From: Prochlorococcus sp. MIT 1341
GTDB taxonomy: Bacteria; Cyanobacteriota; Cyanobacteriia; PCC-6307; Cyanobiaceae
Direction: 5' to 3'
NCBI RefSeq assembly: GCF_034092415.1
Contig: NZ_CP139304.1
Coordinates: 248,001 to 312,000, forward strand
Length of the DNA: 64,000 nt
The notes beneath the pieces are model-generated. The model was not told the DNA's origin and did not search any database. It was given only the letters and a program-made list of their open reading frames with translations. The position numbers were made by a program, and so were the translations under genes. Within the stretch, counting starts at the first letter, position 1; each line of letters opens with the position of its first letter. Of this stretch, positions 21,414-32,023 are shown in pieces.

Positions 21414-21673
21414 TTGAATTTTAAAATAGAACTATATAATCATATCCAGCATATGGAGATTGTCCAGTGGTTGAATAGGTTAATGTGCCTTTGTCGAAAT
21501 AATATTACTTAAGGAAAATTTCTTTTCATTTAGAAGTTTACAACATTTCCTAGTTGAAGGATTTTTGTCTAGGGTTGAAGAATATAGATGTAGTGATTAT
21601 TGAATTAATTGTTAGGCTAGAGTTTATTGAAAATGCTTGTGATAAGGTTGTAAAAAGTAAAAGATGGAAATCT

Positions 21674-23047
21674 ATGGCTGAATTTCCTATAGGCATATGG
21701 CTAATAACGAGCTGTATTTTGTTTATATTTTCTTCCCTCAAACATTTTCTTCTTGGCAGTTCAGCTTGGGACTTAGGCATCTTTGAGCAGTTTTCATGGT
21801 TGATATCAAATGGAGATATAAATGGCATAAGCAGTCTTAGAGGGATAACCCCTTTGCAAGATCACTTTTCCCTATTGCTACTACCAATTGGGATAATTTA
21901 TAAACTCTTACCGTCTACCTATACTTTACTGGGGCTCCAATCTGCATCGTTAGGTGCAATTCCCGCGATTTCTAGTTATTTGTGTGAAAAATATGGGATT
22001 CCAAAAAAGCTTCGTATTTCGTTGACGATTGCTACTGCATTTAGTCCCATAATCTTTTTAGTAAATATAGCAAACTTTCACCCTGAGGTACTCGTAACTC
22101 CTTTTATGTTACTTGCTCTAGTTTATATAAGGGAAGGGAGATATATAAGATTATTTCTTCTTTTGTTTATATCCTTATTCGCAAAAAAATCTCAATGCCT
22201 TTTTGGTGCTGGACTAGCAATATATTCATTTTTTATTGAAAGGAAAAGAGTAGCATTTATAATTATGCTGATATCAATTGGCTGGTGGTTTCTTGCAGCT
22301 TCTTTCTCTTCCGCAGGCGGCGATTATATTCAAAGTAGATTAGGTTACCTAGGGTCCGAAAATATAGCAATAATAAATTCCTTACTCTTTACCCCCTGGA
22401 AGATATTTGAAGAGGCCCCACCTGATACAATCTTGCTTTATATAATTGGCCTAATTTTACCTTTTAGTGCGTTAATTAACAAGAAATCCTTACCAGCAAT
22501 GTATGGTACTATTCCATTCTTTTTTATTAATTTAATTTCTAATACTGGAACTCAGAGGGAACTTTACTCCCAGTATTCTATTGGAATTCTCCCTTTTATT
22601 ATAGTTGCTTGTATTGATTGCTTAAAATCTGATTTTCGACATAACTCGTCAAATTTATTAAGAGCATACTATTTAACGATTATTCTGACAATTGTTGCTT
22701 TTATTGGGTATTCAAGAATTGGATATTATCAACATAGATATTTTCCACGTTGGAATGCTGCATTGGAATTTAATAGAATAAAGCAATTAATACCTTCTGA
22801 TTCATCTGTACTTACTAGTGATCATCACGCTGCTCATTTCTCTGCAAGAAAACTAATTCATAATATAGAAGACAGTAACTATAACCCACTTACTCAATAC
22901 GATTATCTGGTCTTCCCGATACTAAACCCAAATGAGAATAGGTTTGATGAGATGAACAGTATTATTGACTCTATTCCCGATGAGCAAAAAGAATGTGTAA
23001 GTAACTTAAAGTATTTTAGAGTTTGCTCTATTTATGAGAATCAGTAA
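21674..23047 (+). CDS. DUF2079 polytopic membrane protein
   Basis: A roughly 457-residue protein with about ten membrane helices. The stretch SSAWDLGIFEQFSWLISNGD near the N-terminus, PLQDHFSLLLLPIGIIYKLLPS and NFHPEVLVTPFMLLAL are characteristic of DUF2079, a family with a glycosyltransferase-like (GT-C) membrane fold. The frame is open to a TTG at 21554; I prefer ATG 21674 because it starts just before the first helix. Substrate unknown; sugar or lipid-linked sugar transfer is only an inference from the fold. Confidence 0.8.
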   Translation: MAEFPIGIWLITSCILFIFSSLKHFLLGSSAWDLGIFEQFSWLISNGDINGISSLRGITPLQDHFSLLLLPIGIIYKLLPSTYTLLGLQSASLGAIPAISSYLCEKYGIPKKLRISLTIATAFSPIIFLVNIANFHPEVLVTPFMLLALVYIREGRYIRLFLLLFISLFAKKSQCLFGAGLAIYSFFIERKRVAFIIMLISIGWWFLAASFSSAGGDYIQSRLGYLGSENIAIINSLLFTPWKIFEEAPPDTILLYIIGLILPFSALINKKSLPAMYGTIPFFFINLISNTGTQRELYSQYSIGILPFIIVACIDCLKSDFRHNSSNLLRAYYLTIILTIVAFIGYSRIGYYQHRYFPRWNAALEFNRIKQLIPSDSSVLTSDHHAAHFSARKLIHNIEDSNYNPLTQYDYLVFPILNPNENRFDEMNSIIDSIPDEQKECVSNLKYFRVCSIYENQ

Positions 23048-23463: not shown

Positions 23464-24489
23464 ATGGATTCTGATCATAATAAGTCAAGGACCGTTGTTA
23501 TTACAGGAGGTTCATCTGGAATTGGTTTACAGGCTGCAATTAATCTTTTAAAGTTCGGTAACAGGGTAATCTTGCCATGTAGAGACGATAAGACAAAAGA
23601 CAATGTCAAGAAATTACTAAAGCGAAGCCTTAATTCTAATGACATTTCAAATGTAGAGTTCGAAATAATGGATCTTTCTGATCTAAACCAAGTCTCTTGC
23701 TTTAGTAAACGTATTATAGGAAGAGAAAAGTCTATAGATACATTAATTCTTAATGCTGGACTCCAATATACAGGGTCACCATATCCATTGTTTTCCGCTC
23801 AGGGACATGAACTTACTTTTTCTGTTAATCATTTGTCGCACTTTGCTCTAACACTTTCACTCTTAAAGCTGGTTTTGAATTCGGGAGAACCAAGGGTTGT
23901 TATAACCTCTTCAGAAGTTCATAATCCATTATCACCAGGTGGTCGTATAGGTAAAGGGGCAACCTTAGGACGACTTGTTGGTATGACAAATCAAAATATA
24001 ATTATGCTTGATGGTTCTCCTACTTTTAACGCGGATAAATCATATAAAGATAGCAAGTTATGCAATTTACTATTTGCAAAGAAACTATCTGACTATCTAG
24101 AAGACATAGACAGTCCTATTCCAATTTTGTGTTGGGCACCAGGCTTAGTTATTCCACGATCCCGAGCGGGTTTCTTTAGATATAGTCGGCAAAACAATGA
24201 ATTTGGCCAACGGGTATTTGCCTTTGTAGCAAGGGACATTCTACGAATCACCGAAACCCCTGAAGGTGCAGGCTTTCTATTGTATTCTCTAGCCACCTCA
24301 ACTTTATACAATAAAAAAGGATTTTCTTATTATAATAATTCAGTAGGTTTGATGCACCAGAAAAACAAATTTTCCCAATCATCTGTTTCAACAGAAGCAG
24401 AAGATAAAAACTTAAGAGACTATCTGTGGAAAGAATCTCTTAGAATAGTTAGAGAATATGATCTTCCAATAGCAAATTTTAAGCTTTAG
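23464..24489 (+). CDS. POR-like short-chain dehydrogenase lacking the POR cysteine
   Basis: A 341-residue NAD(P)-dependent SDR enzyme related to light-dependent protochlorophyllide reductase. Visible: ITGGSSGIGLQAA coenzyme loop, LNAGLQ, SVNHLSHFALTLSLL, ITSSEVHNP and the catalytic YKDSKLCNLLFAKKL, all POR-like. In true POR a GCVA cysteine binds pigment; here the equivalent stretch is WAPGLVIPRSRAGFFR with no such Cys. So it may use a different substrate; a real por gene should be elsewhere. It lies convergent with the MscS gene. Confidence 0.8.
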   Translation: MDSDHNKSRTVVITGGSSGIGLQAAINLLKFGNRVILPCRDDKTKDNVKKLLKRSLNSNDISNVEFEIMDLSDLNQVSCFSKRIIGREKSIDTLILNAGLQYTGSPYPLFSAQGHELTFSVNHLSHFALTLSLLKLVLNSGEPRVVITSSEVHNPLSPGGRIGKGATLGRLVGMTNQNIIMLDGSPTFNADKSYKDSKLCNLLFAKKLSDYLEDIDSPIPILCWAPGLVIPRSRAGFFRYSRQNNEFGQRVFAFVARDILRITETPEGAGFLLYSLATSTLYNKKGFSYYNNSVGLMHQKNKFSQSSVSTEAEDKNLRDYLWKESLRIVREYDLPIANFKL

Positions 24490-24502
24490 ATAAGAATAAC
24501 TA

Positions 24503-25567
24503 TTACTCCAGTTGTTTGTTTATATGGATCGTATTGGTTGGAAATGCAAATTCAATTGACCTAGATTTGAACTCCTTCATTATCTCAATATTTATATTCT
24601 GCTGGGCAGTCATTGCTCTTTTATAATTCCCCGTAGGAACGAAGTATACGATCTCAAAGTCAAGACTAAAATCTCCAAATCCAATGAAGCTACATCTATC
24701 GTAATCGGCGTCTGGTACTCTGTTAATGATTGATTCAACTATAATTGGTATTTGAGAAACTAATTCATGTGTAGTTCCATAGACTAAGCCTATTTTATGT
24801 ACAAGCCTTCTTCTCTTCATCTCTGCATAATTGCTAATTGTGCTACTAGTGAGTTTGCTATTACTCATGACAATAGTTTCTCCACTTAAACTTCTCAACC
24901 TGGTAGACCTGACCCCAACCCTCTCTACCGAAGCCCAGACATTATCTACATGAATAAATTGCCCTTTTTGGAATGGTTTATCAAGTAAGATAGTTATATA
25001 TTCAAAAAATTCTTGAACGGGTTCTTTAAGAGCTAAACCAGCTCCAATTCCACCAGCACTAAGCAAAGCCCATACTGCTGCCATTTGTACTCCCATATTC
25101 TGCAAATAGAATATTGTTCCTATTAACCAGACAGAAGCTCTGACCATCGGAGCTATTGACTCTATCATTGCTCCAATTGCATCATCATTAACTTTGTGGG
25201 ACCATGTTTTTAAGAGCCTTAGCGAAATCCTGTTAACTAACCTAACAACTACAAAGAGAACTAATAGTTTTGTGATTCCTAGAAAAAAGTAATCAATTTC
25301 ATCGTTAATTGGTAAAAGTACCCATGAAAAAGAAATTGTAAGTATGAGACCTAAGGGCTTAATAGAACCTAATATTACATTAACTATAAAATCATCTGTT
25401 GTGCTTTTTGTTTTTGTTGCTAGACGTAGGAAGCTTTTTTTTGCTAAAGAGGAGACTATTAATGTAATTAGAGCACCAACTATAAGAGAAAGGATCGAGG
25501 TAAGTATTGTTTTATAGATGGTTCCTTCTTTCAGTATGTTGGATAGAAAAGTTGCTACAAACTCCAT
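24503..25567 (-). CDS. MscS-family small-conductance mechanosensitive channel
   Basis: A 354-residue membrane protein with three or four N-terminal helices, the pore-lining region AVWALLSAGGIGAGLALKEP, and the beta domain FIHVDNVWASVERVGVRSTR, with the ETIVMSNSKLTSSTISNYA stretch. These are typical of MscS. Such channels release solutes on hypo-osmotic shock. It is one base downstream of the isochorismatase gene and shares its direction, so probably an operon. Confidence 0.9.
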   Translation of the reverse strand: MEFVATFLSNILKEGTIYKTILTSILSLIVGALITLIVSSLAKKSFLRLATKTKSTTDDFIVNVILGSIKPLGLILTISFSWVLLPINDEIDYFFLGITKLLVLFVVVRLVNRISLRLLKTWSHKVNDDAIGAMIESIAPMVRASVWLIGTIFYLQNMGVQMAAVWALLSAGGIGAGLALKEPVQEFFEYITILLDKPFQKGQFIHVDNVWASVERVGVRSTRLRSLSGETIVMSNSKLTSSTISNYAEMKRRRLVHKIGLVYGTTHELVSQIPIIVESIINRVPDADYDRCSFIGFGDFSLDFEIVYFVPTGNYKRAMTAQQNINIEIMKEFKSRSIEFAFPTNTIHINKQLE

Positions 25568-25568
25568 T

Positions 25569-26141
25569 TCAATTTTTGCTTGAGGGTATTTCTTTTATAA
25601 TTGTACTCAATTCTTTGAATTCCGGTCTAATTGAGTTGTTACAAATTTCAAAAAGTATACTTTCTGTTGTCGTTAAGGAGGCTCCTTGTGACATGGCACG
25701 CGTTAAAGCAAATTCTTTGTCTACATTATTCCTACTTGCTATGGCATCAGCCACAACGAACACATTGAAATCCTGTTCAATTAAATCAAGAACTGTTTGT
25801 AAAACACATATATGTGCTTCAATTCCGCAAACCACAATATTTTTTGTCTTGTAATTAGATAATATCTTTAATAACATAGAGTCTACTGCACTGAATTTAG
25901 TCTTTTTAAGAGCATCTTTTACCATTATAGGTGATATTTGATTGATTGTTTTTCCCAATTTATCGGGAGCTTGCTCTGTATGTTGTATAGGAATATTTAG
26001 AAGGGTAAAACCATTTATTAATCTTTTGATGTTCCATATTAATATATTAGAATCATTAATTACATTGACTAACTTCTCCTGGACATCAATTACCAAAAGA
26101 ACACATTCGTCACTACCTTTAATTCGGATACAACAACTCAT
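25569..26141 (-). CDS. Isochorismatase-family cysteine hydrolase
   Basis: A 190-residue alpha/beta hydrolase of the isochorismatase/nicotinamidase superfamily. The triad is suggested by the Asp of VLLVIDVQEKLV, the Lys of DALKKTKFSAVDS and the Cys of GIEAHICVLQT. Substrate cannot be told; such proteins hydrolyse amides, isochorismate or related compounds. It precedes the mscS gene with a one-base gap. Confidence 0.85.
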   Translation of the reverse strand: MSCCIRIKGSDECVLLVIDVQEKLVNVINDSNILIWNIKRLINGFTLLNIPIQHTEQAPDKLGKTINQISPIMVKDALKKTKFSAVDSMLLKILSNYKTKNIVVCGIEAHICVLQTVLDLIEQDFNVFVVADAIASRNNVDKEFALTRAMSQGASLTTTESILFEICNNSIRPEFKELSTIIKEIPSSKN

Positions 26142-26346
26142 TTGGTTTTAAATATTTTATTATAGCAGAAATTCATCTACCAAGTTGTCTAACTTTGTAG
26201 AAACCTGCTAAAGTAGAAGGAGGATAAATTGGCTAATGTCCTAATAGTTGTATTGATTAAAGTATAATTAATTATAAATAGCATCTAAAGTCAATAAGCT
26301 ATGGTTAATAGAATGACTTAGAGAATACATTTCAATAATCTAAGCA

Positions 26347-26862
26347 ATGGTGGCTATAGTCTCATTAGTCGCTACTATTGAGAAAAGCAAGCTCACAATG
26401 CTTCGGTCTACAAGAGCTAGATTAGGGCCGACAGTTGGTCCACTAGAAATAGGCCTTCATCAAGGAGGCAGACGCCTTACACCACAACGTAAGCGAGTTT
26501 TAAATCTTTTTGAAAGAATAGGAGCAGGAATTCATTTAAGTGCAGAGGAAGTGCACCATCAACTGCTCGATGCAAAGGAGAAAGTTTCTCTAGCTACAAT
26601 TTATAGAACTCTTAGGCTCCTTGTTGAAATGGGATTTCTACACGAGCTTGAGCTTTCTGAAGGTGGCCATCGATTTGAATTAGCAAGTAATGACCATCCA
26701 GATCATCATCACTTAGTATGCATTGGTTGCGGTAGAACAGAGGAATTTGAGAGTGAATCAGTCCTAAAGGCAGGTCATGATGCTGCAAAAAGTATAGGTT
26801 TTAAACTAATAGAATCTACATTAAATGTAAGAGCATTATGTCCTGTTTGCCAAAGCAAGTGA
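26347..26862 (+). CDS. Fur-family metal-responsive transcription regulator
   Basis: A 171-residue Fur/Zur/PerR-type repressor. The N-terminal winged helix has RRLTPQRKRVLNLF and VSLATIYRTLRLLVEMGFL; the metal/dimer domain has DHPDHHHLVCIGCGRTEEF and C-terminal CPVC, giving the structural Zn(Cys)4 site. Cyanobacteria keep several paralogues and I cannot decide which metal or peroxide it senses. Start may be the internal ATG at 26398, which would shorten it to 154 aa. Confidence 0.88.
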   Translation: MVAIVSLVATIEKSKLTMLRSTRARLGPTVGPLEIGLHQGGRRLTPQRKRVLNLFERIGAGIHLSAEEVHHQLLDAKEKVSLATIYRTLRLLVEMGFLHELELSEGGHRFELASNDHPDHHHLVCIGCGRTEEFESESVLKAGHDAAKSIGFKLIESTLNVRALCPVCQSK

Positions 26863-26896
26863 AATGGGTAACGCTAATTAGCTAATAATCTAAGGA

Positions 26897-27844
26897 TTAT
26901 CCTTGCAATGCACCTCCACAACTTGACCCTGAACCTGCTGTGCATCCAAAACAATGACTAGCTACATTTATTGGGCTATTTATTAACTTATCCTCAGTCT
27001 TAAGAAGATCGTCTATGTTCTTAGCTTGATAGTTAAGCTTTAAGCCTAATTGTTGGTTAAAGTCACAATCATATAAATTACCTTTCCAGTCAACGCTAAG
27101 CATTGTTTTACACATGAGGTGTTGAATATTATTCGGATTATAAGAATCAATTAAGAGATTTTGATAAACTTCAAATTGTTGGTTGGTTTTCAGTTGATTT
27201 GCAAAACGTTTAATAGGCATATTAGTTATCGTGAGCAAGTTATTAAATTGGATACCATGATCTTTATACAGTTCATATTTATAAGCCTCCTGTAATGAAG
27301 ATTGATCTGGTGGTAAGTTTATACCCTGTGGATTGTATACTAAATCAAGGATTAAACCTGTATTATTAATTCCATAACCTTTAGTATTTAAAAGCTTTAA
27401 TCCCTTTATACTTCTATCATATACGCCAAAGCCTCTTTGTTTGTCAACATTTTCTTTTTGGTAGCATGGTAACGAGGCAACAACCCTTACTTTATTTAGT
27501 GCTAAAAAGTCTGAGAGATCTTCCTGACCACTCTCTGTAAGTATGGTCAAGTTACACCTATCAATGATTTCCACATTCAATTTATAGGCATTTTTGACTA
27601 ACTCTCTAAATCCCTTGTGTAGTTCTGGTGCACCACCGGTTAAGTCAAGGGACTTAAAGTTAAATCTCTCTAAAACTAAAGGTATTTTATTAATCAATTT
27701 GTCCGACATCATTTCAGTCCTTGTGGGACTAGCATCAACGTGGCAATGTTTACATGCTTGATTACATTTATAACCAAGATTGACTTGTAGCGTTTCAAGC
27801 TTTTCCCTATATATATTGGGGAAGATAGTAGGCTTTGATATCAT
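26897..27844 (-). CDS. ArsS-like radical SAM/Cys-rich protein
   Basis: A 315-residue radical SAM enzyme. The cluster motif is CNQACKHC (near residue 27), followed by LTGGAPE for SAM binding; the C-terminal domain has MCKTMLSVDWKGNLYDCDFN and a Cys-rich end HCFGCTAGSGSSCGG. This arrangement matches the family with a DUF3641 domain (TIGR04167, often annotated ArsS for arsenosugar biosynthesis). In relatives one Cys of the terminal motif can be selenocysteine; here it is Cys. The arsenosugar role is family-based inference. Confidence 0.85.
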   Translation of the reverse strand: MISKPTIFPNIYREKLETLQVNLGYKCNQACKHCHVDASPTRTEMMSDKLINKIPLVLERFNFKSLDLTGGAPELHKGFRELVKNAYKLNVEIIDRCNLTILTESGQEDLSDFLALNKVRVVASLPCYQKENVDKQRGFGVYDRSIKGLKLLNTKGYGINNTGLILDLVYNPQGINLPPDQSSLQEAYKYELYKDHGIQFNNLLTITNMPIKRFANQLKTNQQFEVYQNLLIDSYNPNNIQHLMCKTMLSVDWKGNLYDCDFNQQLGLKLNYQAKNIDDLLKTEDKLINSPINVASHCFGCTAGSGSSCGGALQG

Positions 27845-27923
27845 GGTAACTTAAAGAGGTATTTTATTAATTGGAAATCATTATGATGCAATATACATGG
27901 TAATTAAAGGAGTGCAAATATTC

Positions 27924-29105
27924 TTAAATATTCTGTGACAGTTTTATAAACCAATTTATGTATTGTGCCGGTCCCTGGTCAAATAAAAAATCAAATTTTA
28001 ATCGATCTTTCTCATCAGTTATGCCTTTAAGTTTATCTTTAATAAAACTAGGTCTATCGACTTCCCCAAAGCTACTATCTACAAGATATGCATGACTACG
28101 TTGATTATTTAGCGTGCCGATATCCTTTATTAAGGTTAGGAAACCTCGATCACTACCGCCTCTAAGATAATTGGTTCCATCTTCGTTAAGGTTTGATGTT
28201 ACTGTATCTCCAATGCCAACTAAAAAAGGAATATCTTCTGTCGGGATTTGGTTTGCTAGATATAATATTTCATTGTATTCCTCAGGTATATCTCTAACGT
28301 TAAATTTTGATCCAAAATGACTTTTGCCTTTTGTAGATTCAATATATTTATTTATAAGTACTAGAAGTCCCGCTTCTTTTAAAGAACCCTTGATCATAAA
28401 TTGTATATCTGTAGTTCCAACATCATTTCTGGTTGAAGATTTAATAATTTCTTTTTTTCCCTTTTTACCAAGATTAGGAGCCAAATGGGTAAAAAAGGAA
28501 TTTGATAAACCTTGCTTGGAGGCTTCTTTTAGGATCTCCTCCATCGTATCTACAATGGATAACTGTAATTTTTTCATAACATCAAGGTTATCTTTCTCAA
28601 GATTAAAAATATAATTTAAATTAATCGTAGGGGAAAGTTGCATATTAATAATTGATTGGCGAGAATAATTCTCTAGTAGATTTATGGGATAACTTGGAAA
28701 GATAACCTTTAATCTGGCGAGAAACTTATTAAAAAGTCTACTAGGAACTGATTTTAAAAATATAATTTCATTATCACTTACACCATCAATGGTGAGATTC
28801 CCATAATTATCTTGATATTGAATTCCCCCTGCTGCTAGACCTGGAAGGTAATAACCTATAACTTCGTCGGGATAATTAATCAAGGCTTGCTCAACTAATC
28901 TATTAACACCTCTTTCCCCTTCATGTTCTCCATTAGTTAATACGAAAAATTTATTATGCAGCCTTTTTGCTGCCTTTACGTAATTTATATTGATTGATCG
29001 ATTCATTGGATCTCTGACCAATGGTATGCATACTCCGTCTATGTCCTGAATAATTAGGAGGTCTTTTTGTGATTTCAATATTTGTAGGAGATCGTTTTCC
29101 TTCAT
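27924..29105 (-). CDS. stpA: StpA-like glucosylglycerol-3-phosphate phosphatase
   Basis: A 393-residue HAD-type phosphatase resembling StpA, which makes the compatible solute glucosylglycerol from its phosphate in salt-stressed cyanobacteria. Visible: IIQDIDGVCIPLVRDPMNR with the nucleophile-acid DxDG, VLTNGEHEGERGV, YYLPGLAAGGIQYQD, FFTHLAPNLG and VGIGDTVTS, all StpA-like. No ggpS is in this window. It lies 79 bases downstream of nothing in its own direction and is followed by the radical SAM gene on the same strand; the dehydrogenase gene is divergent from it. Confidence 0.85.
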   Translation of the reverse strand: MKENDLLQILKSQKDLLIIQDIDGVCIPLVRDPMNRSININYVKAAKRLHNKFFVLTNGEHEGERGVNRLVEQALINYPDEVIGYYLPGLAAGGIQYQDNYGNLTIDGVSDNEIIFLKSVPSRLFNKFLARLKVIFPSYPINLLENYSRQSIINMQLSPTINLNYIFNLEKDNLDVMKKLQLSIVDTMEEILKEASKQGLSNSFFTHLAPNLGKKGKKEIIKSSTRNDVGTTDIQFMIKGSLKEAGLLVLINKYIESTKGKSHFGSKFNVRDIPEEYNEILYLANQIPTEDIPFLVGIGDTVTSNLNEDGTNYLRGGSDRGFLTLIKDIGTLNNQRSHAYLVDSSFGEVDRPSFIKDKLKGITDEKDRLKFDFLFDQGPAQYINWFIKLSQNI

Positions 29106-29331
29106 GTAACTACAAGCATTAGTACCTTATACCATAGTATGTAAGGAATATAAAATTCAGATGGCAAGAACTTTCAAATTATATTAAAATTGATTTATCA
29201 TGATGACTAAACTCGGTCAATCACAAATTTTGGGAATTTAAAGAATTTTCCGTTGCATAGATCATCTTGGATCATGATTGACGAACAAAACAATCCTTAC
29301 ACTCTCCACCGTAAACCTTAACTTTATTCAA

Positions 29332-30849
29332 ATGAAGAACAGTTTTTTTACATACAGTCATACAAATGAATCAATCTCAAAACGGATTAAACAACTAGAT
29401 AAAGCTAAAATAGGTTTTTACAGTATAGGACCTTACGCCGGATCTTTGGCCTATAACTCTGCAATGCAGACTAACGCAAATAACTTACTTCTTGCCCCTA
29501 GAAAAGGTAGATCGTTGCTCGGGGGGTTTACTCCCAATAATATCAAAGGTATGGATGAAAACCATTTAAAAGTTGTGCAGAGTAGATCTCAACATAATTT
29601 AGGAAAAAAAGTGATAACGAATAATCTCGAGTATCTTATTGAGAATTGCGAGTTAGTCATTCTGAGTAGTAATAGCAATCATGTAGAGAAGGACATTAAA
29701 GAAGCTTGCTATTTTCGAACGAAATTAGGTAGAGAGGATGTTCTTCTAGGTTGTTTAGCAGGTTCCTTTGCATACGATGACAAAACGAAAGAATCTTATG
29801 TTCTTGCTGAGAAATTTCAAAACCTTGCTTTTTTCTCAGGGTTTCATAGGCATGGCTCATTACGGAATCCATTAGATAGTTTTACTGCAAACTTTTGCCA
29901 TCCCAATTCTCTTATGGCGTTAATAGGGGCTCGAATGTTGGATAAATTGTCACCTAACATTCAGGTTTCACCAGGAGTTCATAATATTGAAGGACAGTAT
30001 ATTAAGGCAGCTAAGAATATTTCGTCCATATTTGCTGGATTTGCATATCAATATCATTGTAATAATACAGGCATATTGCCTTCAGTTCTTACTCTTCTTT
30101 TGAACCAGTGCTTAGACCAGGCAGCAACAGTATCTATGACAAGAAAAGAACGCAATCAGTTTTATAATAACCAACCAATACCATTAACAGAATTGGGGTA
30201 TGGGGTCCATCGAATTCAGGCTTCATTACAAAGAGAGGCAGAAAGTGAGATGGTTAGGGATCATACATTCGCCCAACTTACCGCAATGGTTGCAGATGTT
30301 AGAGGAAGTATGGACTTACCAGTATCCGGACAACCAACTCGGAATTTTCAAGCAGGTCAAATTCTCTCTAAATATATACTATCCCTTAAAAGATTACCAA
30401 TATCCCTCTCGGAGTTTGAAGCTTGGTGTGAAGCTGAAGGTTTACAAAAGGGAGGATTAGAAGGTTTAAAAGCCTTGAGATTATGGCCAAAGATATTCAC
30501 TCGATATGGAATAGAACTCCATGATTCGTCTATGATTAATTTACTATACCTCTCTATCTTTGGAAAGCCTGAGATAAAGCCACTGATTTATGATGTTCTT
30601 ACAAAGAGTAGAGAACTTAGCAACTTCTGTCAAGAATCAGTTAGACCAAACTTTAGTAAAGCGTATGGCGAAGCTCTTTATACAATAGATCAAAAAGAAT
30701 CCTTAGAGTTAATTATCCAGGCTGTAAAGACTAATCAGTTAATTCAAAGCGATGCAAAAGAATTGACTGAACTAAATCAAAGTAACTCGTCTAATATAAT
30801 TGCTCCACATTTGAAAGCTATTGAATGTATAGAAGAAACATTGAATTAA
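29332..30849 (+). CDS. Predicted NAD(P)-dependent dehydrogenase (6PGDH/GpsA-like fold), unknown substrate
   Basis: A 505-residue protein with an N-terminal Rossmann-like segment (KIGFYSIGPYAGSLAYNSA, then ELVILSSNSNHVEKDIKEAC, in the style of hydroxyacid dehydrogenases) and an all-helical C-terminal half. Other marks are GFHRHGSLRNP, GVHNIEGQYIKAAKN and MVADVRGSMDLPVSGQ. Two-domain layout resembles 6-phosphogluconate or glycerol-3-phosphate dehydrogenases but the glycine pattern is atypical. I do not recognise the exact family. It is divergent from stpA and followed by a sugar-kinase-like gene. Start ATG 29332 chosen over a TTG at 29278. Confidence 0.6.
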   Translation: MKNSFFTYSHTNESISKRIKQLDKAKIGFYSIGPYAGSLAYNSAMQTNANNLLLAPRKGRSLLGGFTPNNIKGMDENHLKVVQSRSQHNLGKKVITNNLEYLIENCELVILSSNSNHVEKDIKEACYFRTKLGREDVLLGCLAGSFAYDDKTKESYVLAEKFQNLAFFSGFHRHGSLRNPLDSFTANFCHPNSLMALIGARMLDKLSPNIQVSPGVHNIEGQYIKAAKNISSIFAGFAYQYHCNNTGILPSVLTLLLNQCLDQAATVSMTRKERNQFYNNQPIPLTELGYGVHRIQASLQREAESEMVRDHTFAQLTAMVADVRGSMDLPVSGQPTRNFQAGQILSKYILSLKRLPISLSEFEAWCEAEGLQKGGLEGLKALRLWPKIFTRYGIELHDSSMINLLYLSIFGKPEIKPLIYDVLTKSRELSNFCQESVRPNFSKAYGEALYTIDQKESLELIIQAVKTNQLIQSDAKELTELNQSNSSNIIAPHLKAIECIEETLN

Positions 30850-30898
30850 ATATACAATTAGAAATGACAGCCTCTAATTTTTAGAATATTGATAAGTT

Positions 30899-32023
30899 AT
30901 GAAAAACAACGTCGAATTCGCCGAGATAATAAGAACTTTCTTTTTAAAAAAAAGCTATCGTATACTATCAATTGATAAAATTAGGTCTGGAAACATAAAT
31001 GGAACTTACCTTATAGAAATAGATTTCGGTGACACTAGAAATAAATATGTTCTTCAACAAATAAACTCGGAAGTATTTCACAGACCCTATGATTTGATGT
31101 CGAATTTGAATGAAGCAATTAAACACTTTAATTACAAGGTAATTTCAATGCCATATAACCAAATCTCATTTTGTATACCTACATACATAAACTCGAATGG
31201 TTCTAAATCACTTTGTCAGGTAGAAGCAATCTTTTGGCGTCTATTTCACTATATTCAGGATTCCTATTCATTGGAAATAATCCATACAGTTGAGCAGGCC
31301 TATTCTGTTGGATATTCGCTCCATAGCTTTCACGGTGTCTTTTGTGATTTACCCAAAAATAAGCTTCTGAAACCAATAAAAGATTTCCATAACACTAAAC
31401 AATATTTAAAGACTTACTATAAATTATTTAATTCAGTTTCGTTTGATAACCTAAATTTTAGCATTAGAGATAGAGTTCTTCGGGCAAATCGAACTATAAT
31501 CGACAATCAAGAATTAATTACAGAGTTGGATGAAACATTAAATAGCAACAAACTAACCTATATGGCTATTCATGGGGATCCTAAAGTTAGCAATTTTCTT
31601 TTTGATTTAAAAACCGATGAAGTTTCCGCAATTATAGATTTAGACACATTTTATTATGGACCTGCGCTAATAGATATAGCAGATTGTATTCGATCAATCT
31701 GTAATCCACATGGTGAAGATGCGAAAAATTTAACTTTAAATTTTTTCGACATGTCATTATTTGATGCTTTCCTTAGAGGGTATTTTAAACGAAGGAAATT
31801 TATCCTAACGAAATATGATATGTTAAACATCTCATTATTTATGAGAATAATTATTTATGAGCTTGGAATTAGATTTTTAACGGATTATTTAATAGGTAAT
31901 AAAGTTTTTAGTATAGAATATAATACACAGAACCTTAAGAGATCTGAAGTTCAGTTTAATACTCTATTAACGATTAATGCTAATTTAAGTGAGATTAACA
32001 AGAATATTCTTAGGTATATATAG
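30899..32023 (+). CDS. NahK-like aminoglycoside-phosphotransferase-fold sugar kinase
   Basis: A 374-residue kinase of the APH/choline-kinase fold. N-terminal SGNINGTYLIEI and YVLQQINSEVFHRPYDLM are close in style to N-acetylhexosamine 1-kinases (NahK); the catalytic loop is AIHGDPKVSNFLFD and the metal-binding motif AIIDLDTF. It probably phosphorylates a sugar or small alcohol, but the substrate is unknown. It is separated by 49 bases from the dehydrogenase gene and likely cotranscribed. Confidence 0.75.
   Translation: MKNNVEFAEIIRTFFLKKSYRILSIDKIRSGNINGTYLIEIDFGDTRNKYVLQQINSEVFHRPYDLMSNLNEAIKHFNYKVISMPYNQISFCIPTYINSNGSKSLCQVEAIFWRLFHYIQDSYSLEIIHTVEQAYSVGYSLHSFHGVFCDLPKNKLLKPIKDFHNTKQYLKTYYKLFNSVSFDNLNFSIRDRVLRANRTIIDNQELITELDETLNSNKLTYMAIHGDPKVSNFLFDLKTDEVSAIIDLDTFYYGPALIDIADCIRSICNPHGEDAKNLTLNFFDMSLFDAFLRGYFKRRKFILTKYDMLNISLFMRIIIYELGIRFLTDYLIGNKVFSIEYNTQNLKRSEVQFNTLLTINANLSEINKNILRYI

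Follow-up and report, generated by a model that had tools for sequence, protein, structure and literature searches.

StpA is paired across cyanobacteria with a nameless protein predicted to have the glycerol-3-phosphate dehydrogenase fold

The stretch analysed here, referred to as the window, comprises 64,000 nucleotides of Prochlorococcus sp. MIT 1341 (contig NZ_CP139304.1; C1:248001-312000) and carries the gene of StpA, a phosphatase known from salt tolerance and assigned to glucosylglycerol-3-phosphate, next to that of a nameless protein called DH in the following. StpA and DH are the real unit of the locus, and the adjoining genes, encoding the arsenosugar enzyme ArsS and a sugar kinase, are syntenic neighbours. 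The predicted structure places DH within the glycerol-3-phosphate (G3P) dehydrogenase fold as a strongly diverged member, and within the unit it probably works as an NAD(P)H-dependent dihydroxyacetone-phosphate reductase. The locus is ordinary in its StpA, ArsS, and kinase; what is not ordinary is DH, a conserved family tied to StpA across cyanobacteria. With this reading, a nameless, highly conserved cyanobacterial family of 295 relatives gains a likely role in salt-solute metabolism.

The pairing of StpA and DH is seen in their distribution. In 151 genomes of the window's family, searched for each of the four genes, both StpA and DH were found in 73 and neither in 71, with seven discordant genomes (73/5/2/71; phi 0.91). 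The discordant cases are mostly contig ends or incomplete assemblies, and the well-assembled exceptions are G102, which has StpA without DH, and G083, which has DH without StpA. G083 is a complete genome that also encodes the glucosylglycerol-phosphate synthase GgpS; with no StpA match, it may use another phosphatase. In a phylum-wide sample (n = 292), all 33 genomes with DH carry StpA, which itself occurs in 55 of the 292. The 295 relatives of DH found in a scan of the genome collection include proteins from Leptolyngbya, Xenococcus, Hyella, Lyngbya, and Acaryochloris; within the searches made here, DH was seen in cyanobacteria only, and no viral copies were found. In a selection of 29 DH genomes, the majority non-picocyanobacterial, StpA and GgpS are each present in 26, and every one has at least one of the two. 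DH and StpA are not adjacent in the non-picocyanobacterial loci examined, and the persistence of their association in such unlinked genomes indicates a tie to glucosylglycerol metabolism that exceeds local gene order. The neighbours of DH outside the picocyanobacteria (lpxA/lpxB-like, secD/secF, CorA, MscS, and DAG-kinase-like genes) gave no consistent clue.

An earlier reading of the window, made from sequence only, had joined all four genes in a possible sugar or solute pathway and proposed a survey of their co-occurrence. Carried out on the 151 genomes, that survey upholds the link between StpA and the dehydrogenase and removes the other two members. ArsS is near-universal in the family, being present in 94 of 94 good-quality genomes, and is therefore uninformative about any pathway. 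Kinase homologues occur in 102 of the 151 genomes, 38 of which lack StpA, and are missing from 6 of the 28 genomes that have StpA and DH without GgpS. The arrangement described in the sequence-only reading, two divergent pairs composed of ArsS with StpA and of the dehydrogenase with the kinase, was confirmed for all four open reading frames, which lie in place as follows:

26897 to 27844, minus strand: ArsS, arsenosugar radical SAM enzyme (TIGR04167, 444.6 bits, cut-off 300)
27924 to 29105, minus strand: StpA/GgpP, glucosylglycerol-3-phosphate phosphatase of the HAD fold (TIGR02399, 485.4 bits; PF09506, 454.2 bits)
29106 to 29331, no strand: intergenic region between StpA and DH, 226 bp (by position alone)
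29332 to 30849, plus strand: DH, 505 amino acids, G3P dehydrogenase fold, candidate dihydroxyacetone-phosphate reductase (by predicted structure)
30899 to 32023, plus strand: NahK-like sugar 1-kinase of the APH fold (PF01636; NahK profile match)

The DH reading frame was listed as 29278-30849 on the plus strand with a TTG start; its homologues begin at the internal ATG at 29332, which gives 505 amino acids, and the annotated start at 29278 is probably too early. The region 29106-29331 is presumed to be a shared regulatory region of the divergent StpA and DH genes; a promoter scan of it gave promoter-like matches no better than chance.

The AlphaFold2 model of DH (predicted local distance difference test, pLDDT, 86.1; predicted template modelling score, pTM, 0.84) provides the evidence for its identity. 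The 19 best Foldseek matches in the PDB are all G3P dehydrogenases (best E 5.2e-10), as are the 16 best entries in structural alignment, with Z of 23-28 over approximately 310 residues and a root-mean-square deviation (rmsd) of 3.0-3.9. The alignment with GpsA 3k96 reaches Z 27.9 over 310 residues with an rmsd of 3.0, and the next family in the ranking is ketopantoate reductase at Z 14.7. The two-domain dehydrogenase noted in the sequence-only reading has a predicted two-domain G3P dehydrogenase fold, and the suggestion made there of an action on a sugar or glycerol phosphate agrees with its likeness to a glycerol-phosphate enzyme. A PDB sequence search and a PADLOC search with DH gave no match. 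PF07479, the C-terminal domain of GpsA, was the sole Pfam family matched among 42 DH members, by one member at E 0.0087, and NF000942, a GpsA model, was weakly matched by two members; weak NCBIfam matches to unrelated families were treated as noise. In a MAFFT joint alignment, K228-N229 of DH fall on K167-N168 of GpsA, and R337-N338-F-Q-x-G on R231-N232-Y-Q-x-G, while D322 and S326 were paired by eye with D220 and T224 of GpsA. K228-N229, D322, S326, and R337-N338 are invariant in 120 DH proteins, across which 115 positions, including the Rossmann and active-site motifs, are nearly invariant.

According to the proposed mechanism, DH would, like GpsA, use NAD(P)H to reduce dihydroxyacetone phosphate, a substrate suggested by the fold, to G3P, and the G3P would serve both as the acceptor of GgpS and as the backbone of membrane lipids. 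Where a glucosylglycerol producer possesses GpsA as well, DH would act as an isozyme linked to the osmolyte; in Prochlorococcus-type genomes, in which canonical GpsA was not found, the G3P step would depend mainly or solely on DH, and this would explain its survival after the loss of ggpS. A search with PF07479 gave no match in any of the seven genomes tested, among them that of the window, that were classed as Prochlorococcus-type (a label taken from gene order and named relatives, not from a tree), and found canonical GpsA in G009, G023, G083, G102, and G220. A comparison from 2012 counted EC 1.1.1.94 among the activities for which Prochlorococcus and Synechococcus WH7803 have no annotation (PMC3369817), and a survey from 2022 reported gpsA from freshwater as well as SC5.2 picocyanobacteria and only the FAD-type enzyme from marine ones (PMC9361551). 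Synechococcus WH7803 carries DH (locus L184). The membrane lipids of Prochlorococcus need G3P, and neither of these surveys has an annotated NAD(P)-type dehydrogenase for it there (PMC3369817; PMC9361551), so a retained protein of the G3P dehydrogenase fold is a natural candidate. That DH is the missing G3P-forming enzyme of Prochlorococcus, which came from the osmolyte pathway, replaced GpsA, and was kept with StpA after the ability to make glucosylglycerol was lost, has roughly an even chance of being right. If true, DH would represent an unrecognised family in the photosynthetic cells that are the most abundant on Earth.

Several points weigh against DH as a dihydroxyacetone-phosphate reductase. 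The window's DH has no significant match in Pfam or NCBIfam, GpsA models included, and an hhalign profile comparison of DH with cyanobacterial GpsA was not significant; because the GpsA family models do not recognize it, DH is described as a G3P-dehydrogenase-fold protein and is not filed as GpsA. In a column-shuffle control, 18 invariant columns were identical; the 40 shuffles averaged 12.2 and reached at most 19. The residue match with GpsA therefore appears only moderately above chance, and it is the fold that carries the argument for the identity of DH. The lysine of the GpsA 'TKG' motif, a catalytic residue in human GPD1 (K120), has no counterpart in the alignment, where DH has CLAGSF, and a new invariant pair, H172-R173, flanks a low-confidence loop; the missing lysine together with the new residues implies that the substrate of DH may differ from that of GpsA. 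The apparent absence of GpsA is drawn from one family model in seven genomes and two papers, and the FAD-dependent GlpA reported in marine strains (PMC9361551) could bear on their G3P metabolism. Finally, a reductase role for DH does not account for the retention of StpA in genomes without GgpS.

This retention is a puzzle in itself: in many Prochlorococcus-type genomes, the phosphatase for glucosylglycerol phosphate is intact and the synthase is missing. Most Prochlorococcus are reported to lack key glucosylglycerol genes (PMC6753628). In the family, 28 genomes have StpA and DH but no GgpS, 17 of them in at most 10 contigs; negatives in the counts for all genomes of at most 10 contigs are incomplete, and the correlations in that subset were not relied on. 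In 20 GgpS-free genomes, StpA keeps 64 of 64 invariant residues and shows no fixed difference from its GgpS-bearing relatives, and the ratio of nonsynonymous to synonymous substitution rates (dN/dS) in close-relative pairs is roughly 0.15-0.25 for StpA and 0.08-0.14 for DH. Both proteins are under purifying selection in GgpS-free genomes, and the intact residues and low dN/dS indicate that StpA is selected there for something. Its likeliest substrate in these strains is a glycoside phosphate, which is favoured by the nearness of the predicted StpA fold to trehalose-6-phosphate phosphatase (pLDDT 94.1; Z 22.6). A role as a simple phosphatase turning G3P into glycerol is less likely, given the resemblance of StpA to disaccharide-phosphate phosphatases.

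The same observations give some weight to an alternative in which DH, with the same fold, acts on another phosphate, such as a glycosyl-glycerol phosphate or a phospho-ketose, which StpA then dephosphorylates to an undescribed solute; GgpS-free Prochlorococcus would in that case use another glycosyltransferase. StpA is the most constant partner of DH, also in the 28 GgpS-free genomes, it remains intact in 20 of them, and its trehalose-6-phosphate-phosphatase-like fold would suit a glycoside phosphate, while the loss of the 'TKG' lysine and the new invariants H172 and R173 near the active-site loop of DH could signal a changed substrate. However, the fold matches G3P dehydrogenases specifically, the R-N that binds phosphate and the K-N of catalysis appear to be retained, a G3P-forming enzyme is needed where no GpsA was found, and the locus holds no extra glycosyltransferase, so that this alternative is considered possible but rather unlikely. 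The missing catalytic-position lysine and the near-perfect co-occurrence with StpA would also suit a DH that has lost catalysis and assists StpA or GgpS in a structural or regulatory capacity. This is quite improbable, as the 115 nearly invariant positions and the low dN/dS fit a working enzyme, and G083 and two more genomes have DH without StpA.

The two genes might also stand together only through conserved gene order in streamlined genomes, with no functional tie, and the whole neighbourhood from the SDR gene to MetA is indeed conserved in Prochlorococcus. This appears improbable, since Pleurocapsales, Leptolyngbya, and Acaryochloris carry DH and StpA apart, StpA occurs in 26 of the 29 selected DH genomes against 55 of 292 in the phylum sample, and the two are jointly absent from about half of the family. 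The original proposal of one pathway from all four genes to a modified sugar, with a radical SAM step, draws on their adjacency in many Prochlorococcus genomes. It is largely refuted by distribution and has become highly improbable: apart from the near-universal ArsS, the kinase occurs without StpA and has no match in the HL-type genus g18, and in RCC307-type Synechococcus, StpA and DH adjoin ggpS, glpD, and glpK, not ArsS or the kinase. Its link between StpA and the dehydrogenase stands, and the distribution across the 151 genomes speaks strongly against the version that includes ArsS and the kinase. The dihydroxyacetone-phosphate reductase remains the favoured reading of DH.

The sequence-only reading also held that GgpS was absent, which is correct for the window but not for the genome. 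The search that it proposed found ggpS on the same contig at C1:361179-362618 (TIGR02398, 782.8 bits, cut-off 569), about 49 kb past the end of the window and at a distance of 85 kb from StpA, with transporter genes of the ggtBCDA type after it; absence of GgpS from the genome is ruled out by this match. StpA therefore has its normal partner and a conventional role here, and the layout is the ordinary marine picocyanobacterial arrangement, as reported for Synechococcus WH8102, whose ggt operon includes ggpS (SYNW1281) and whose ggpP (SYNW0860) lies elsewhere (PMC2874817). In RCC307-type Synechococcus, the cluster order is ggpS-ggtBCDA-DH-stpA-GH13-glpD-glpK. The StpA of the window passes the equivalog cut-off of TIGR02399 (485.4 against 365.5 bits), and it has the HAD DxDG motif, with D21, D23, G24, and D300 invariant. 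By analogy with Synechocystis, it would dephosphorylate the glucosylglycerol-3-phosphate made by GgpS.

The labels given to the remaining genes from sequence proved sound, as ArsS and StpA both exceed their family cut-offs and the kinase family profile matches the NahK structures 4ocj and 4wh1 over the full length at E about 3e-76 (4ocj, 2.7e-76), with kinase motifs aligned. The window's kinase, which is loosely linked to the DH gene upstream of it, is only 30-37% identical to its picocyanobacterial relatives, and the neighbouring DH about 50-60%; no kinase homologue was matched in genus g18 or in G003. The order short-chain dehydrogenase (SDR)-MscS-isochorismatase-Fur-ArsS-StpA-DH-kinase-MetB-MetA is kept across Prochlorococcus, and the window has its SDR, MscS, isochorismatase-like, Fur, and ArsS part at 23464-27844. 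Downstream of 32023, genes judged by eye as thioredoxin-like and Mfd-like replace the usual MetB and MetA block, and at 21554-23047, a predicted membrane protein of 497 amino acids adjoins the SDR gene, a place that is taken by other genes in relatives. An SbcC/SbcD-like pair, identified by eye, is inserted between DH and the kinase in many loci of marine Synechococcus and Prochlorococcus (L108, L109, L110, L124, L135, and L146), and the window has none. In G220 (L160/L165), a DH 67% identical to picocyanobacterial copies lies amid unrelated genes, by eye amine oxidase-like, aminotransferase-like, and Na+/alanine symporter-like, which hints at acquisition by horizontal transfer.

Among known systems, Synechocystis StpA/GgpP (slr0746) shares with the window's StpA the TIGR02399 equivalog and a genomic background with GgpS and a Ggt-like transporter, but the StpA described here is unlinked to ggtA and is paired with DH. 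The kinase shares full-length homology and the HGDxKxxN and DLDT motifs with the N-acetylhexosamine 1-kinase NahK, whereas its picocyanobacterial copies are only 30-37% identical to each other and occur independently of StpA. GpsA and GPD1 (PF01210 with PF07479) share the two-domain fold with the DH model over approximately 310 residues (Z 27.9), with a helix bearing K-N and a later R-N-x-x-x-G motif that appear to lie at matching places. In contrast to them, DH has 505 amino acids rather than approximately 320, is unrecognized by the family models, lacks the 'TKG' lysine, and possesses an extra conserved loop (HRHG) and a C-terminal extension; in the searches made here, DH was seen in cyanobacteria only. 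The second-best Foldseek match to DH is DsGPDH of Dunaliella salina (6iuy; Z 26.9), a bifunctional G3P dehydrogenase with an attached HAD phosphatase domain that has an osmolyte role in this salt-tolerant alga. In both systems, a G3P dehydrogenase and a HAD phosphatase would work together toward an osmolyte; in cyanobacteria, however, dehydrogenase and phosphatase each have their own gene, and StpA looks like a disaccharide-phosphate phosphatase.

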